From Owenia fusiformis (Eukaryota > Annelida > Polychaeta > Sabellida > Oweniidae): a stretch of 64,000 nucleotides of DNA. Below are positions 32,621 through 64,000 of this stretch, in pieces. Both the position numbers and the translations under genes were made by a program. The DNA is taken from contig CAIIXF020000010.1 in NCBI GenBank assembly GCA_903813345.2, positions 36,445,425-36,509,424 of the forward strand, given 5' to 3'. Position 1 is the first letter of the stretch, and every line of letters starts with the position of its first letter. The notes beneath the pieces were generated by a model. The model worked only from the letters and a program-made list of their open reading frames with translations, was not told where the DNA came from and ran no database searches.

Positions 32621-35600
32621 TTATTTTTTCTTGTTGTGTTTAGGCTTCAACACAACCCCTCCCTGGGGCTTGGGGGTCGGAGTCTTACTCTTGAAATTTG
32701 GCGTCACTGGTGACCCGACAACACTCGGAGAGTTCAGTGTGGACCCCACAGTTTGGAATGGGAAGGAGGACGTCAGGGCATCATGTAGTTTTGTTGGCGA
32801 TGTCACATGATTTAAAGTGAACAAATGTGGCTTTTTATGGTGCCGTAGTACTGAGTTTGTCTGCAGATTATCTAACGTACTCCGTAGTTGTTGTATTTCC
32901 TCTAATATTGTACATTGTCTGAGATACTCATCAACGGAACCACCTCCACTAATCACAACTGGCGTGAGCCAGCGTAAATATAAATATGACCAGAATTTGA
33001 CCAATGGCAGCTCAGCTAAGGGTAAAATCAAATCCCTTGATTGTGACATCATATCTTTAGACTGTGATGTCATTTCTTTTGAGCTTGACACCACATGATG
33101 GTTTGCCTCACAGTTTGTTGATTCACTCATATTTAGAGTCGTTTTCTCATTTTCAGAATGTAACGAGTAAATCGGGTTGTTGAACATTGGGAGATCCCCA
33201 GGAGCCAGTTGCGAACCCCACTGCCAAGTATGTACCATTGGAATTCTCCGACCGCCGAAATCCTGACTCAGATTATTCCGTTGATGTGGATTATCGAACA
33301 GGAAGGTATCGAATATGGTTAAATACGTACTGTCCCACAGGATCGTTAGGTAGATTTCTGTGAACTGAAAACTTGTTGGAAAGTTCTGAGTCAACTGCCA
33401 TACACAGTCCAGAAAAATGAGAAAAACTGGCGACTGAAAAATAAAATACAACTGCAATGGGTTTTAGCGTCATAATAAAAACTGTATTTGCATTACACAG
33501 CCCTGGATGTGCAATTTATTGTAATAAAGTATTGTATACAATACAAATCACAATAAGATTCTCCACTCCTTAAAATCAGGCACACAGCCCAAAAGAAAAT
33601 CATATCACTTCAATAATTAATTCAATTTCTACAACAAAACAGCAGAAACTCTGAACTTTTCAATTTTCATATCTCAAAATGAACAGAAAACTTTTGCTTA
33701 TACATTTCCACAAACCTTCTCAATGTCTTGACTGGTGATATGTCCACATCTAGTGAGAAACGGATGCCCCATAGCGATCCACTCCTTCTGTATGAGCGAT
33801 TGGAAGCCTGATATGGTACGGTAATGTGGGTCTAACATCAGCTGAACAAGACTGGTAATGATGCATGTATAATCACAAGACTCCTCTTCTGCAATGAAAA
33901 GATGGCGGCATGCTTCAAAATTTTAAAATGTTTAACTAAAAAGAGGAATCGGCAAGGACTCTATATACAGACGCCATGTTAATGATTCACCCTAAATAGA
34001 CATGGAGAGGAATAAGCAATTGAGTAATTGAAAGAAGTTTTAAAATTTATGCTGTGTACTCAGAGACATGTTTAGCACAGCGACATGTTTGTTTAGCATA
34101 GAGACTTATTTTTTATTCAGAGACATGTTTTGGATAAAGAGACATGTTTTCCACACAGAGACATGTTTTGCATACAGAGACATGTTTTCCACAAAGAGAC
34201 AATGTTTAACATACAGAGACATGTTTTCCATACAGAGACATGATTTCCACACAGAGACAATGTTTAGCATACAGAGACATGTTTTACATACATAGACATG
34301 TTTTCCACACAGAGACATGTTTTCCACACAGAGACAATGTTTAGCATACAGAGACATGTTTTACATACAGTGACATGTTTTGCATACAGAGACATATTTT
34401 CCATACAAAGACATGTTTTCCATACAGAGAAATGTTTTCCATACAGAAACATGTTTAGCATACAGAGACATGTTTTCCATACAGAGACATGTTTTCCACA
34501 CAGAGACAATGTTTTCCATACAGAAACATTTTTTCCACACAGAGACAATGTTTTCCATACAGAAACATGTTTAGCATACAGAGACATGTTTTCCATACAG
34601 AGACATATTTTCCATACAAAGACATGTTTTCCATACAGAGAAATGTTTTCCATACAGAAACATGTTTAGCATACAGAGACATGTTTTCCATACAGAGACA
34701 TGTTTTCCACACAGAGACAATGTTTTCCATACAGAAACATGTTTAGCATACAGAGACATGTTTTCCATACAGAAACATGTTTTCCACACAGAGACATGTT
34801 TTCCATACAGAGACATGTTTTCCACACAGAGACAATGTTTTCCATACAGAAACATGTTTTCCACACAGAGACAATGTTTTCCATACAGAAACATGTTTAG
34901 CATACAGAGACATGTTTTCCATACAGAGACATGTTTTCCACACAGAGACAATGTTTTCCATACAGAAACATTTTTTCCACACAGAGACAATGTTTTCCAT
35001 ACAGAAACATGTTTAGCATACAGAGACATGTTTTACATACAGAGACATGTTTTCCACACAGAGACAATGTTTTCCACACAGAGACATGTTTAGCATACAG
35101 AGACATGTTTTCCACACAGAGACATGTTTTCCATACAGAGACATGTTTTCCATACAGAGACATGTTTTACATACAGAGACATGTTTTCCACACAGAGACA
35201 ATGTTTTCCATACAGAAACATGTTTAGCATACAGAGACATGTTTTACATACAGAGACATGTTTTCCACACAGAGACAATGTTTTCCACACAGAGACATGT
35301 TTAGCATACAGAGACAATGTTTTCCATACAGAAACATGTTTAGCATACAGAGACATGTTTTACATACAGAGACATGTTTTCCACACAGAGACAATGTTTT
35401 CCACACAGAGACATGTTTAGCATACAGAGACATGTTTTCCACACAGAGACATGTTTTCCATACAGAGACAATGTTTTCCATACAGAAACATGTTTAGCAT
35501 ACAGAGACATGTTTTCCACACAGAGACAATGTTTTACATACAGAGACATGTTTTCCACACAGAGACAATGTTTTCCATACAGAGACATGTTTTACACACA

Positions 35601-38600
35601 GAGACATGTTTTCCACACAGAGACATGTTTTCCACACAGAGACAATGTTTAGCATACAGAGACATGTTTTCCACACAGAGACATGTTTTACATACAGAGA
35701 CATGTTTTCCACACAGAGACAATGTTTTCCATACAGAGACATGTTTAGCATACAGAGACATGTTTTCCACACAGAGACATGTTTTCCATACAGAGACATG
35801 TTTTCCACACAGAGACAATGTTTAGCATACAGAGACATGTTTTCCATACAGAGACAATGTTTTCCATACAGATACATGTTTTGCATACAGAGACATGTTT
35901 TCCATAAAGAAACATGTTTTACATACAGAGACATGTTTTCCACATAGAGACAATGTTTAGCATACAGAAACATGTTTTCCATACAGAGACATGTTTTCCA
36001 TACAGAAACATGTTTTCCATACAGAGACATGTTTTACATACAGAGACATGTTTTCCATACAGAAACATGTTTAGCATACAGAAACATGTTTTCCATACAG
36101 AGACAATGTTTTCCATACAGAGACATGTTTTCCATACAGAGACAATGTTTAGCATACAGAGACAATGTTTTCCATACAGAGACATGTTTTCCACACAGAG
36201 ACATGTTTTCCACACAGATACATGTTTTGCATACAGAGACATGTTTTCCATAAAGAAACATGTTTTCCATACAGAGACATGTTTTCCACACAGAGACATG
36301 TTTAGCAAACATACATTTACCACCAGTTTTACCTTGAATTCCAACAGTATTTCCACCAATCATAGCTTGAGCCACTTCACGAGAGATTTGGAGACAATCC
36401 CTAATAATTTGTAACCAGCCAGTGTTATCTAAATCTGCATACCAACTTGCATCCTTGCTTGCACAATCTGACTTAGACCCTATATAAGAAAATATACAAA
36501 CCTCAAGGCTTCATGTAATATATGAATCTGACTTGGACCCTATATAAGAAAATATACAATCCTCAAGGCTTCATGTAATATATGAATCTGACTTGGACCC
36601 TATATAAGAAAATATACAATCCTCAAGGCTTCATGTAATATATGAATCTGACTTGGACCCTATATAAGAAATTCGAACATGACTGTATTCACGCCTTCTA
36701 TAAACTGTAAACAAAGTCAACATTTCACCCGGGGTATATTCGCGAAGAATACCCCTGGTAATATGTGTAATGTGTGACGTCATAACTGCAGGTCGTAGTA
36801 ATGGCGGACCATAATGAATATTCGAAACATTTTGGTGAGTTTTCATGTTCGAATCGTAATATAGGCCTCAGAGCGGGGGTAATATTGTCAAATACACCCC
36901 TTAGGGCTAGGCACAAACGTTTTCGAACCCCTCACTCCCTTCGGTCATTCTGGGTACAGAAAACAGTTGTGTCTAGCCCTGCGGGGTGTATTCGACAATA
37001 TAACCCCTGCTCTTCGTTCTTTATTTCTTAAATATACAACCCTCAAGGCTTCTTCATGCCATTTCATGACAACTGAAAAAATGACACCATTCATATGGTG
37101 AGAAAAAATACATTTCTCAAAATGGTGTATATTACCAGAATGGAGCCCATAAAATATTTCTGAGCATTAAGTCAAACAAAAACCTAAATAGGTGAATAGA
37201 CAATTCAGTGATAGTACATGTACATAGTATATCCTTTCCATTTTTTTATTATTTTGCTCAGTTGATTTTAAATTCTGGCTATGTAAATGACATACTTAAA
37301 GATCAAGGAATGGCTATGATTCATTTCTTAATGACAGGTGAAGTTATATAATATGGAATTAAAAAAAAAAAAAAAAAAAAAAAACTCTTTTCACCTGGCA
37401 TGCATATCTCCTTGAGTTTCTCAAAGTTTGACTGTAAATCTTTAACAGTTGGCAGACGTTTGTTTAGATTTTTGGTAATTAGTTCTCGTTGCGTATTTCC
37501 CGGATTGGTTTCAAGTATGGCCTTGCACATCCTTGAAAAAGATCAGTTTAAATAATATTACAGGCTGAAAATACCTTACATGATGTAAAAGATGAAATGG
37601 ATATTTATTATTATTTATAGATCAATGGTTGTAAAAACAGACACAAAAATACAACAAGCCATTTGTTACAGATGCTAAACACTATTTGATGGATGCCGAA
37701 CACCAACCACCAAACGCCATCCACAAAAATGATGGAGACAATAACAATATGTTATAATAATATATAACACCACAAGTGGTGACATAAAAAATTGAATAAC
37801 TAATGAAAGACCTCCTAACTTAATAGTATGTTCATTAAAAATAAAAGACTCTTATTCTTCTTAATTCCTTGCATATTCTGTTGTTTTCCATACCTTGTCA
37901 CATTTCAATTATCCCATATTTAGAGGTTATGTCACCATTACGTAAAATATGCCGCAGTTCTCCTAATATAGGCCGACTTTGGGAGGCTCTATGGGGCAAG
38001 TATTACATACCTAGCGAAGCATTTGTATTGAAGTCAATGGGGCAGAAGGTCGACTATAAATTCCTGTCTAGCCGCCAAACTTTTTTACCATGACAATCTT
38101 ATGACATCATGTTTCACTTCGTCCAAATTTCACTCGCAAACAGATGTGTGATGTCATTGATATAACGTAGCCATAGAAATAAAGGTATGTAATACAACAA
38201 TAATGTCATGATGGAATATATGTCTTCGGTCTGTCGTAATTATTCAATGATAGGGACATAACTGCTAAGAATAAAGGCATATATCACGTCATCGTGACAT
38301 AACTGATGTATTACAAACCTTTATTCCCATGGCTATTTTATATCAATGACATCACGCATCTGTGAGCGAGTAGAATTTAATCGAAATGAAACATGACATC
38401 ATGATATTGTCATGGTTATTAAAGAAATCTAATATCAAAACGAGGCAAGCGGGCAATATCGGTGGATATAGCATGCTAACTTTCCTACTTCCATACAAAT
38501 GCTTCGCAAGGAATTTAATACAATCATTTATATACAAGTATACATACATGTAAAAATACCAAGTTAATATAACTTACTTTTCTTCGTAAAGTGTGTTTGC

Positions 38601-59365: not shown

Positions 59366-59474
59366 ACATGGCACAACATGTTGCAATTGCACAAAGCAGC
59401 ACAATATGTACTTCTGGAACTGCAAAACTATAAATTGCCATGTTCTGAGATAGAATCATTGTAACAGTATAACT

Positions 59475-59982
59475 GTATCACACACATGGGATTACACACT
59501 CATTAGTATCACACACATGTGATTACACACTCATTTGTATCACACACATGGGATTACACACTCATTTGTGTCACACACATGGGATTACACACTCATTTGT
59601 ATCACACACATGGGATAACACACTCATTTGTATCACACACATGGGATTACACACTCATTTGTATCACACACATGGGATTACACACTCATTTGTATCACAT
59701 ATGGGATTACACACTCATTTGTATCACACACATGGGATTACACACTCATTTGTATCACACACATGGGATTACACACTCATTAGTATCACACACATGGGAT
59801 TACACACTCATTTGTATCACACACATGGGATTACACACTCATTTGTGTCACACACATGGGATTACACACTCATTTGTATCACACACATGGGATTACACAC
59901 TCATTTGTATCACACACATGGGATTACACACTCATTTGTATCACACACATGGGATTACACACTCATTTGTATCACATATGGT
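59475..59982. repeat. 31-bp tandem array, about 16 copies
   Basis: The unit is GGGATTACACACTCATTTGT, then ATCACACACAT. The open frames of about 170 codons are by-products of the repeat. Confidence 0.93.
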
Positions 59983-60147: not shown

Positions 60148-63100
60148 TTACGAACTCCACCAGATAATTGTCTGAATGGAATGTGGCTCAGCCACTAGGT
60201 TTATATATCCTATAGTAGGGTCATATATATGATATCCAATAGCATCATCTTCCCTGAAATCAAAATAAATCATTCGTTAATTTATGAATTTTTGTATTCA
60301 AATGCTTATAAAGTAGGCCGACATATATGCAGTATAATAAGTCCTTACAAACCCCCGATCTTTAGAAAAAACTTCTGTAGGAAATGAGACAAAATTTTTC
60401 AAAAAATATTTCGTTACTTTTACTAACTTTATCAAAGTCAGAATGACCTTACCTATTAGAGACAACCATTACTATAGAAGAATCAGCGAGCATGAAACCA
60501 ACCGTCTCTAACTTGGTGCTTTTGTTCCCCTTCACTGCAATTCTCTTGGATCCATTTGGGAGGAATTTACTGAAATAACAAGAAACTCAGTAAAATGACA
60601 AGGAATGTTACAATAGTGACAATTACATTCACAAGAAATTTGCAAGGGTATTATTAAAATCAATAAAAATTTACGAAATCCAAAGGAATTTACTGGAATC
60701 ACAATTTAACTGAAAATCACAATTGATTGAAATCACAATTTACTGAAACTCACATTCTACTTAATACTTTATTTACACATTTCGAGGAGTGGAGTGTAGT
60801 TTAAAATGAAACATAAAGAGGGGTGGGAAATTACCTAAAATGGCCAAGTACATAATACATTGGCTGCTTGTAAAATTCATCTTTGGCTGCATTGACAATA
60901 ATTGGACTGTCTACAAAGTTTTTCACCCAATTTGGTCCACCCTGTAAATCTAGAGCGATGTTCCAGTCGGTCCATCCAACAATCCAATGATTGAGATCCT
61001 GAAAATAATATATGACATCACAGAATATCACCATGGAAACTAATTGTATACTGTAGTATCTGATTGCTTATAACCCAATGTGTATTGCACATCACCATAA
61101 AAATGGGATAAAATATGTATTTTCTTTGTTATCAATATATCCAACCCCCCAGTGTAAACTGATTCATCTCATGTTTTCAAACGCATTGCAGTAATTTTGA
61201 AACCTATATCAATAAAGTTTCAGGATAACAGAAGTTGTATGTCCAATTAAAAGAAAGTGATGAAATATCTCCCTACAGATAACATTTACAGTTAATCCTA
61301 CTCTATGGAATAAATACCATATCTTACCTCTATTATTGAATGAGCATAACTCTCTCCCCTATCCCAGCTTCCTAACTGTGGGCTCCGGCTTTCGAATGGT
61401 AATGAACCTTCACATGCCTCTGTTGATAAAATAAATTTATCCGGAAATGATTCATGTGTCTTGTCAACTCCGATAATTGGTACAATAAAATCTGTATACC
61501 AGTGGACTCCGACCCCAGACACGTACTTTGCAGCTTCCGGGAACTGAAGAATCTGAAAATATATTTGAACATTTTTTAAACAAAATATTTTTTCAAACTG
61601 TATATCACTTATAACTGATAATCAGCAATATTGAAACACACACATTTTCTTTATTGTTTTTTGGTTGATTTACTTTTTTTCTTATTCATAATGTTATTGT
61701 GAGTTTTATAATTGTATTCTAGTTTCACCAAAATTAGAGAGAATAGGTACCAAATTTTATCTTGTGTCGTGATTAGAATACAACCTTCTGCAAGTTAATT
61801 TTGGCAGTATTTAGTTGGAGAATTTGCCTATTTCAAAGGTATGGCATATTATTAATTGGGTCTTTTGTGAGAATATATCGAAATTCATAACAGTTATATG
61901 ACAGGCCAGTCAAGCCAGCTTTTGCCAAGGGAGGGGGTTTACTTTCTGAAAAATTCCAAGGAGGTTCACATTTGACAATTTTTGAAAATTGCTCTAAACA
62001 GTGGAAACTGCATGATTTTTGGCCAGGGGGAGGTCTGAATGACATAGTACTTTACTATGAAATGTGGCTACTCATCACTATGATTCAGTCAACTTTGTGG
62101 TTTTATTGTACTTACTATTTCAGCCCAACGAGGCAATAAAAGTCTCTGATCATCCATAATCATCAACTTAACGTCGTTGTATTTGCTATTCGCAAGTGCC
62201 GGTCCAAGGTCACTTGCTATAAAGTCTCGCTGGCTCTCGGCTGACCAGCCCATAGCTTGGAATGAAAATCGATCAATATTACCATCAGTGGGCTCATTTT
62301 GAGCTGTTAAACCCCACATTGATATATTGTGTGACTCGTAAGCAGCCATAAACCTGGAAGAGTATATAATTACAAGCCTTAATTATGGGGTATAGTTTAG
62401 CTAAATTATTTAAACCCCACATTGATATATTGTGTGACTCGTAAGCAGCTATAAACCTGGAAGAGTATATAATTACAAGGCTTAATTATGGGGTATAGTT
62501 TAGCTAAATTATTTACCTAAAATGGAAGGGGTGAGGGACTGAGGGTTCCCTTAGAGAGCCTACAAAGGTTACTTATTAACTAAGTACAGTACTTAGCTTA
62601 ACAGTCCTTTCTGAAAGCAATTATATATCATTTTAAAGCTTGCTTTTATTCAAAATTTGAGAATTACACAAATGTAAAGCGATTGCATAGAATGAATATA
62701 CAAGACATGGGTGGGCCAATATGAATCCAGAAAGAGTTCAGCAGAACCCCAAATGCTGCATTAAGGCAACTAAAATGAATTTATAACAAGGGCTTACCCA
62801 AGGGGGTTTCTGCTGTGTCACTGCTCACCGAGCAAATACGTATAGTAATTGTTATTCTTATTACATTTATTACATACTGTAACTAAATAATATCTCCAGG
62901 ATTAGAGGGTCAGTAAATATAATAAATAACACATATACTGAACTTAACTAGCACACACACACACTGATATCATATACAGTATGCTTCCTCAGCCATCTAA
63001 TAGCTTAAATATAAATACCTAGTACCTACAGATAAAAAAGCGATTCTATTAAATAAATAAATATCAATACGATGATTAAATAAATAAATTAATTCGCTCA

Positions 63101-64000
63101 GTTGAATCTGGAAAAATATAATAAGCTCAGGTGTTAGATTTGAGACTGCCATCTATCTTAAATATCCCTGAAGATAAAATACTAACCATTATATAAAACT
63201 ATACAGCTCATTCGCATCTGGAAAAATAGAAAAGAAAGCTTAGGCGGTGGATAGGGATGGACGACAGACACTTCCTTAATAGAGAACTTACAGTTTCAGC
63301 CCAACCAGGGAGCATCAACCTCATATCGTCCAAAATCATGAGTTTAACGTTCTTATACCCATTGTCCCATAAAGCTGGACCTAAATCCTGGGCGATGAAA
63401 TCACGCTGCATTTCGGCAGTGAATCCCATGGCCTGAAAGAGGTAATCGGTCCTCAAACCCATGGTTGGCTCATTCTCTGCCGTGAGGCCCCAAACATGGA
63501 TACCATGTGATTCATAGGCCTGGAGGAACCTGAATAACATGCTATGGTTTAACATGCTATGCTTTAACATGCAAAATATGGAGGAGTGGAGAGAAATTAG
63601 CAAGGAACAAAGTACATACAGACATATGGTTAAAAATAAATTAGATGAAATACTAGTATAACATCCGAATAATGAATGAAAATAATGTTTTCAAAGATGA
63701 CATGAAATAAGGCGAGCATTACATATAAGACTCAAAGAAACACAGGAACAAACATCTACAAATATGAATAAATAAAGAAAACAATAAGAATATCATATTT
63801 ATCCACCAGGGGATATCAATATCTGCATTTTAATCTATTAAAACTTTGAAACCTGATCACCTTGACAACATCTGTGGTAAACAAATAAGACCTACTTGAT
63901 GAAATAATTGGCCCAAGTTTTGTAGTATTTTCCACCCGGACTTCCAATTAGAGTTCCCTTTCCCGTCATGTTTTGATTGGTCTTCATCCAAGCAGGGGCA
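60148..64000 (-). CDS. GBA: Lysosomal glucosylceramidase, GH30 family, 3' exons
   Basis: This enzyme cleaves glucose from glucosylceramide in the lysosome. Exons visible, 5' to 3': 64000-63896 (partial), then one of two alternatives, 63529-63292 or 62353-62116, then 61552-61328, 60998-60835, 60569-60453 and 60253-60148 (stop). All phases fit. The first piece reads [20 protein letters not shown]. The acid/base Glu lies in NEP of both alternative exons. The nucleophile is the Glu of LSTEACEGS in 61552-61328, which also has [10 protein letters not shown] and [15 protein letters not shown]. Next come [20 protein letters not shown] and [20 protein letters not shown], and the C-terminal beta domain ends in TIIWWSS. 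Both catalytic residues are intact. The N-terminal signal and first barrel strands are off the right edge. An AATAAA (minus strand) lies at 60124-60129, very close to the stop, and another is near 60077. Confidence 0.93.
60661..60760. repeat. Short GBA-intron repeats (AATCACAATTTACTGAAA)
   Basis: About four imperfect AATCACAATT-ACTGAAA units in the intron between exons 60998 and 60569. Confidence 0.5.
62116..62353 (-). CDS. GBA: GBA alternative acid/base exon, copy B
   Basis: A second 238-bp exon for the same barrel segment, with acceptor CTTCCAG/G, donor ATA/GTAAGT and the same phases as copy A. Key residues: [20 protein letters not shown], then [19 protein letters not shown] and [15 protein letters not shown]. 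Each copy would splice in frame from 63896 to 61552. Both together would break the frame, because the exon enters at phase 2 and leaves at phase 0. Copy B is followed directly by the exon carrying the nucleophile. Confidence 0.88.
62307..62514. repeat. 103-bp tandem duplication of the GBA copy-B exon edge
   Basis: The 5' 47 bp of copy B, its acceptor and the adjoining intron are repeated once with a 103-bp period (62307-62409 and 62410-62514) and only a few differences. The outer copy creates a decoy acceptor followed by about 45 bp of exon-like sequence ([14 protein letters not shown]) that soon reads into a non-coding tail with no matching donor. Confidence 0.85.
63292..63529 (-). CDS. GBA: GBA alternative acid/base exon, copy A
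   Basis: A 238-bp exon with acceptor TTATTCAG/G and donor ACT/GTAAGT. It enters in phase 2 and leaves in phase 0. Key residues: [20 protein letters not shown], then [19 protein letters not shown] and [15 protein letters not shown]. The NEP glutamate is the GH30 acid/base. It differs from copy B at about 28 of 79 positions by hand alignment, with changes around the active-site loop and the DD-RL-LP segment. Confidence 0.88.

Follow-up and report, generated by a model that had tools for sequence, protein, structure and literature searches.

Duplicated acid/base exons, probably mutually exclusive, in the GBA1 gene of the annelid Owenia fusiformis

The window analyzed here, a stretch of 64,000 nucleotides from Owenia fusiformis (contig CAIIXF020000010.1 of assembly GCA_903813345.2, positions 36,445,425 to 36,509,424), contains the 3' part of the glucocerebrosidase gene GBA1, in which the exon coding for the catalytic acid/base glutamate is present twice, as exons A and B. 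The gene lies on the minus strand of the contig (C10) and starts past the right edge of the window; its model was assembled from the window and the adjoining 7 kb (L001), and coordinates follow the window numbering extended rightward. A single orthologue was found, with ten exon positions, and every intron has GT-AG borders. The product of the form with exon B (isoform B) matched human glucosylceramidase with an E value of 3.6e-176 over residues 18-520, PF02055 matches its GH30 domain, and outside the swapped exon it is identical to the human protein at 102 of 221 positions upstream and 102 of 200 downstream. The features of the locus, in the direction of transcription, are the following.

67142-67073, minus strand: exon 1, signal peptide (assigned by eye)
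65779-65588, minus strand: exon 2
64806-64657, minus strand: exon 3
64433-64300, minus strand: exon 4
64068-63896, minus strand: exon 5, of which 63896-64000 lies in the window; donor GTAGGT; upstream partner shared by A and B
63610-63580, minus strand: pyrimidine-rich stretch upstream of the GCATG cluster, read from the sequence
63572-63568, 63557-63553 and 63542-63538, minus strand: three GCATG words before the exon A acceptor
63529-63292, minus strand: exon A (6A), 238 nt, ENEP form, corresponding to human residues 215-294, with Met at human Q284
63291-62354, minus strand: intron between A and B, 938 nt, holding genome-recurrent sequence (about 62943-62781) and the decoy
62410-62512, minus strand: decoy, the upstream copy of a tandem duplication, repeating the polypyrimidine tract, acceptor and first 47 nt of exon B
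62353-62116, minus strand: exon B (6B), 238 nt, QNEP form, with Gln at 284 and the sequon NIS at 224
61552-61328, minus strand: exon 7, common 3' partner, carrying the nucleophile Glu (human E340)
60998-60835, minus strand: exon 8
60569-60453, minus strand: exon 9
60253-60148, minus strand: exon 10, with the stop codon

A preliminary description of this DNA had reported two exons of 238 nt for one catalytic segment, and their lengths, AG acceptors and GTAAGT donors were confirmed here, as were their equal phases (2 in, 0 out) and their shared partners, namely the upstream exon ending at 63896 and the downstream exon starting at 61552. Neither exon needs a gap in its alignment with human GBA1, which begins at residue 215 and extends to 293 for exon A and to 294 for exon B (E about 1e-25). 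Exons A and B are identical at 52 of 80 positions, A and human at 45/80, and B and human at 42/80; in the three-way comparison, 37 positions agree throughout, A and B agree against human at 15, A alone matches human at 8 and B alone at 5, and each of the three has its own residue at the remaining 15. The 28 differences between A and B are as counted before, although the total comes to 80 and not 79 when the split first codon is included. N234 and the catalytic acid/base E235 are kept in both exons. The difference two residues before the catalytic glutamate, E233 in A and Q233 in B, to which attention had been drawn, is real; QNEP is unremarkable, however, because three GH30 paralogues on another contig (C4) have it as well.

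The alignment score of A with B is 272, whereas the scores of the two with the human protein are 247 and 248 and those with the GH30 genes of C4 are 78-84. Since the identity of A and B (65%) is higher than the general identity of the gene to human, the duplication should be old but, given comparable rates, should have occurred after the lineage split from the vertebrates. The human GBA intronic variant c.762-18T>A (PMC6400877) implies that the human exon begins at c.762. This is the third position of codon 254, the codon of K215 when the mature protein is numbered. The acceptor phase of exons A and B is that of the human exon, both starting at the same base as human c.762. As the end of the human exon we assume c.999, for a length of 238 nt; the spelling c.999+1G did not occur in the 6 papers in which it was looked for, and the spellings c.762-1G and c.762-2A, which did occur, may refer to other genes.

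The coding sequence with A and the coding sequence with B each give 522 amino acids and one terminal stop. As stated earlier for this locus, joint inclusion shifts the frame: a transcript with both exons stops after 338 residues, and one with neither stops after 299. According to the exon lengths, these two stops, as well as the stop after 293 residues that follows from use of the decoy, all lie upstream of further exon junctions, and nonsense-mediated decay of the wrong RNAs would thus be expected, this being the usual fate of RNAs with such premature stops. Steric exclusion by a short intron was ruled out, as 938 nt separate A and B. A published predictor of mutually exclusive exons relies on homology between exons of the same length whose phases and splice sites match, and A and B have all of these features (PMC3228551); on the fly X chromosome, 90 of 16180 exons counted as not mutually exclusive also share these features (PMC3228551). 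The mutually exclusive use put forward in the preliminary description is strongly supported by this anatomy and by the selection described next, as a deduction from both, and we consider A and B to be probably mutually exclusive exons of one GBA1 gene, with a probability of roughly 0.85.

Exons A and B differ at 27, 18 and 57 of 80 codons in the first, second and third codon position, respectively. In a pairwise codon model, omega=1 was rejected (2ΔlnL 85), and a model in which one copy has been unconstrained since the duplication was worse by 2ΔlnL 56. The likelihood peaks at omega approaching 0 with dS saturated, and it costs 0.55, 2.3 and 6.0 log units to set omega to 0.02, 0.05 and 0.1, these being boundary estimates from a single comparison of A with B without an outgroup. 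The saturated silent sites consequently give no date for the duplication. The analysis shows that protein constraint on both A and B was long, and it is compatible with a very recent loss of one copy. Saturation at silent sites and the poor fit of an unconstrained copy thus mark both exons as old and retained.

Beside exon B lies a tandem duplication of 103 bp (62307-62409 and 62410-62512), the copies of which differ at 2 of 103 bases (98% identity); like the GCATG cluster before exon A, it had escaped the preliminary description. This duplication is much more recent than the one that gave rise to A and B. Use of the acceptor in its upstream copy would yield an exon of 341 nt, a frameshift and a stop after 293 residues, and rescue of exon B via this decoy acceptor was ruled out on these grounds. 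The decoy may be an allele, a step toward the loss of B, or an assembly error.

With respect to the active site, 15 human active-site and pocket residues were checked in isoform B, of which 13 are the same (D127, F128, W179, N234, E235, Q284, Y313, E340, C342, S345, F347, W381 and N396) while K346 and W348 differ. According to docking and dynamics of human glucocerebrosidase, the glucosylceramide lipid chain lies in a groove that loop 1 forms with residues 233-250 and to which, among others, Q284, L286, L287 and H290 belong (PMC6222826), and a crystal study shows the chains of probes in a channel of Q284, Y313, K346 and W348 and describes a hydrophobic cavity of L241, Y244, P245, F246 and Y313 (PMC9298352); lists of pocket residues used in or found by docking are also available (PMC6359432, PMC11394901). 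Thirteen of the residues so named fall in the swapped exon: N234, E235, D283, F246, Q247 and L286 are unchanged between the two exons, and positions 238, 241, 244, 245, 284, 287 and 290 differ. Exon A has Met where human and exon B have Q284. Moreover, the sequon NIS at 224 is found in exon B only, without a counterpart in A and human, and the human sequon at 270 is missing from both A and B. On the aglycone side, that is with 234, 235 and 283 left out, 7 of 10 positions differ as compared to 21 of 70 others (p=0.019), and for positions 236-246 the figure is 7 of 11 (p=0.038), with p=0.064 for the longest uninterrupted stretch of differences, 240-245; the residue sets were picked after the alignment had been seen and the p values are uncorrected. 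The different substrate preference suggested in the preliminary description gains some support from the differing residues of the aglycone and acyl groove and stays a conjecture. It is plausible that the A and B enzymes are functionally divergent, with the groove and the 238-245 loop re-lined.

Following this, we propose that an old tandem duplication of the catalytic acid/base exon took place inside a single GBA1 gene, and that in each transcript the spliceosome would pick 6A or 6B to follow exon 5 and then continue with exon 7. Two glucocerebrosidases of 522 residues would result, with a common signal peptide, nucleophile and sugar-binding residues, 28 of 80 residues apart in the segment. 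Frame arithmetic would force the choice, as RNAs with both exons or neither would be broken and then destroyed by nonsense-mediated decay, and the likely gain would be that one locus suits two settings of lipid or of pH/activator. From the exon pair we infer actual alternative splicing and its control by tissue, the decay of faulty RNAs, and a difference in substrate or inhibitor preference. As a tentative extension, GBA1 might be switchable cell by cell, with the sugar chemistry fixed and the groove and entrance loop re-lined, perhaps via an RBFOX-type factor. If this holds true, one lysosomal enzyme gene serves different glycolipids, activators or inhibitors.

Several results weigh against this proposal. 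No residual intron similarity was detected in 150 nt either side of A and B (the score was equalled or exceeded in 166 and 175 of 200 shuffles), and the duplication event is therefore not datable from the introns. Acceptor scores, trained with leave-one-out on the gene's own eight constitutive acceptors, which is a tiny training set, were -0.34 for A and -1.37 for B, as compared to -0.30 for exon 2 and 2.4 to 7.7 for the other constitutive acceptors; both alternative acceptors thus lie below the constitutive range, A barely, which fits alternative exons and equally decaying ones. The enrichment of differences in the pocket is modest and dependent on the residue set, its direction being clear and its statistics weak: taking all named residues, 7 of 13 differ as compared to 21 of 67 elsewhere (p=0.11), and 8 of 18 differ in the loop 233-250 (p=0.25). 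Pairing between introns gave no clear excess over 15 shuffles per pair among the three introns. Finally, a fresh frameshifting decoy at exon B counts against the use of both exons.

Frame arithmetic clears the wrong products, yet it leaves the choice of A or B unset. RBFOX proteins recognize the word GCATG, and in vertebrates an exon with RBFOX sites on its upstream side tends to be repressed by them. The three GCATG words before exon A start 43, 28 and 13 nt upstream of its acceptor, at the only spot with three such words in 50 nt in about 71 kb on both strands (51 and 52 words), and GCATG is absent from the intron between A and B and from the intron downstream of B. A GCATG-binding protein might accordingly block A, leading to B where the protein is present and to A elsewhere. 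A candidate factor is at hand in an RBFOX-like RRM encoded on contig C9, with 78% identity (query 42-77) and 79% identity (query 3-26). However, all three words lie inside one 15-nt tandem repeat of 2.5 copies (63535-63572), and slippage of this repeat may have made several words out of a single one; a TAG interrupts the 78% stretch, probably because it extends into an intron, query residues 27-41 were without match, and a Fox-1_C profile search was without match, its controls being equally silent. The repeat in particular lowers the odds of RBFOX-type control, which we regard as a lead and as less likely than not. The pyrimidine-rich stretch at 63580-63610 could possibly provide exon A with a distant branch point and tract.

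Tandem exons can also be made exclusive by competing RNA structures between the introns, instead of by splice-site strength, a silencer protein and decay of wrong products, and this mechanism is already on record (PMC6071210, PMC8042237). For the GBA1 pair we deem it improbable: the duplexes of the upstream with the middle intron and of the middle with the downstream intron were weaker than the best of 15 shuffles, and the duplex of the upstream with the downstream intron, at -30.4 versus -29.0 for the best shuffle, was in slight excess over 15 in what is a crude single-species test.

Equally improbable is that only one exon works, the second being a relic or a seldom used copy, whether B on account of the decoy acceptor in this individual or A on account of a poor acceptor. 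Both acceptors are weak for GBA1, the recent 103-bp duplication gives exon B its frameshifting decoy, and the acceptor of exon A comes after repeat-expanded sequence with several AGs, all of which would suit a relic. Nevertheless, neither copy has acquired a stop or an indel over 238 nt despite saturated silent sites, and the model with one copy neutral was far worse (2ΔlnL 56); a recent loss would be compatible with the data.

Regarding copy number, a GH30 profile search on C10 found exons 3, 4, 5, 7 and 8 once each, plus A and B; exons 1, 2, 9 and 10 were outside the profile or unmatched, and the search was incomplete in that the second part of the third GH30 gene on C4 was unlisted though readable. 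In a DNA search with 61900-63700, the exon region was matched only by itself among the best 40 of 571 candidates, and the other 39 were short matches at query positions 758-920 and 1665-1801, outside the exons, which look like dispersed repeats. Hence, no second GBA1 copy was found by the profile search or among these best 40 of 571 DNA candidates. An assembly artefact, in which two GBA1 genes or alleles were collapsed and one extra exon was left, is hardly credible: a near-identical 103-bp tandem repeat does lie beside exon B and the profile search is able to miss exons, but the five other profile-covered exons occur once each, the exon region is unique within the scope of the DNA search, and the silent-site divergence of A and B is far above the allelic level; the collapsed second copy that the preliminary description had named as fatal to its reading is judged unlikely on the same grounds.

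Three further GH30 genes were noted on contig C4, at 1.53 (L002), 1.61 (L003) and 2.53 Mb (L004), each with two open frames and with QNEP. Among themselves they are identical at 64 to 69 of 77 residues in the segment of exons A and B, whereas they show 18-23 identities over 51-62 positions to human, A or B, where A and B share 52 of 79. On this comparison they belong to a different branch from GBA1. Borrowing of exon B from these paralogues, as its QNEP might suggest, was ruled out, B being no closer to them than A is.

Just 3' of the GBA1 stop codon lies a 31-bp minisatellite (59474-59976, 16.3 copies, 96% match). Elsewhere in the window, a long array of IQEVNIQYNKMQFKSIVH repeats at 1249-2853, open in frames of either strand, is probably a minisatellite and not a gene, a second tandem array, of HTETCFPYRDMF-type repeats and likewise open on either strand, occupies 34264-36510, and an open frame of 280 amino acids, non-repetitive by eye, lies on the minus strand at 32621-33463. 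In the genome, an array of equal-scoring 5S rRNA copies with mostly 310 bp spacing was seen on contig C56 (L017 area, about 1.5-18.4 kb) among the best 47 of 9065 candidates, whereas COX1 was without match. The contigs C1-C12 measure 31.9 to 62.2 Mb and together make up about 477 of 498 Mb, which points to about 12 chromosomes, the number mentioned for O. fusiformis (PMC9539403).

Human GBA1 (PDB 1ogs and others) is orthologous to the gene described here, its segment aligns ungapped and its acceptor phase is the same. It has one such exon, as opposed to two in O. fusiformis. In Drosophila, GBA1a and GBA1b likewise provide two glucocerebrosidase forms in one animal; these are two separate genes and not two exons of one gene. 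The preliminary description had considered the swap of the active-site exon of a lysosomal hydrolase to be, to its knowledge, undescribed. Tandem mutually exclusive exons are an already known kind, including in enzymes, and the exchange of an exon with a catalytic residue is on record for KHK (PMC9741552); only the case of a lysosomal hydrolase looks new. An exon exchange in glucocerebrosidase or another lysosomal glycosidase was not found among the open-licence papers listed in a limited search, which is a weak indication of its absence from print.

Among the closest systems is KHK, in which a tandem duplicated exon pair of a metabolic enzyme keeps the catalytic residue of the swapped segment, an arginine, in both forms (PMC9741552). 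The swapped segment of KHK has a single predicted ligand-contact residue, which does not change between the forms, while in GBA1 7 of the 13 named pocket residues differ. Exons 9 and 10 of PKM resemble the pair in that one gene has two homologous exons of which one is chosen, with altered enzyme behaviour (PMC9741552); in PKM, however, the difference lies at the allosteric ligand site, whereas the GBA1 segment contributes the catalytic acid/base together with part of the lipid groove. As the catalytic residues have stayed and the groove around the substrate has changed over a long period, the natural exon pair can be used as a map of the residues free to vary and of their roles, which is useful for substrate selectivity and chaperone binding; in human structures and models, inhibitors or probes are contacted by Q284, Y244 and P245 (PMC9298352, PMC11394901). 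Across human genes with duplicated exons, 80.6% of the predicted ligand-binding residues of the swapped part are conserved as compared to 53.1% of others (PMC9741552), while in the GBA1 pair the figures are 6 of 13 for the named pocket residues and 46 of 67 for the others, in a small sample and with residues named differently from that study. Taken together, the catalytic residues of exons A and B follow the human duplicated-exon pattern, and the aglycone side opposes it.

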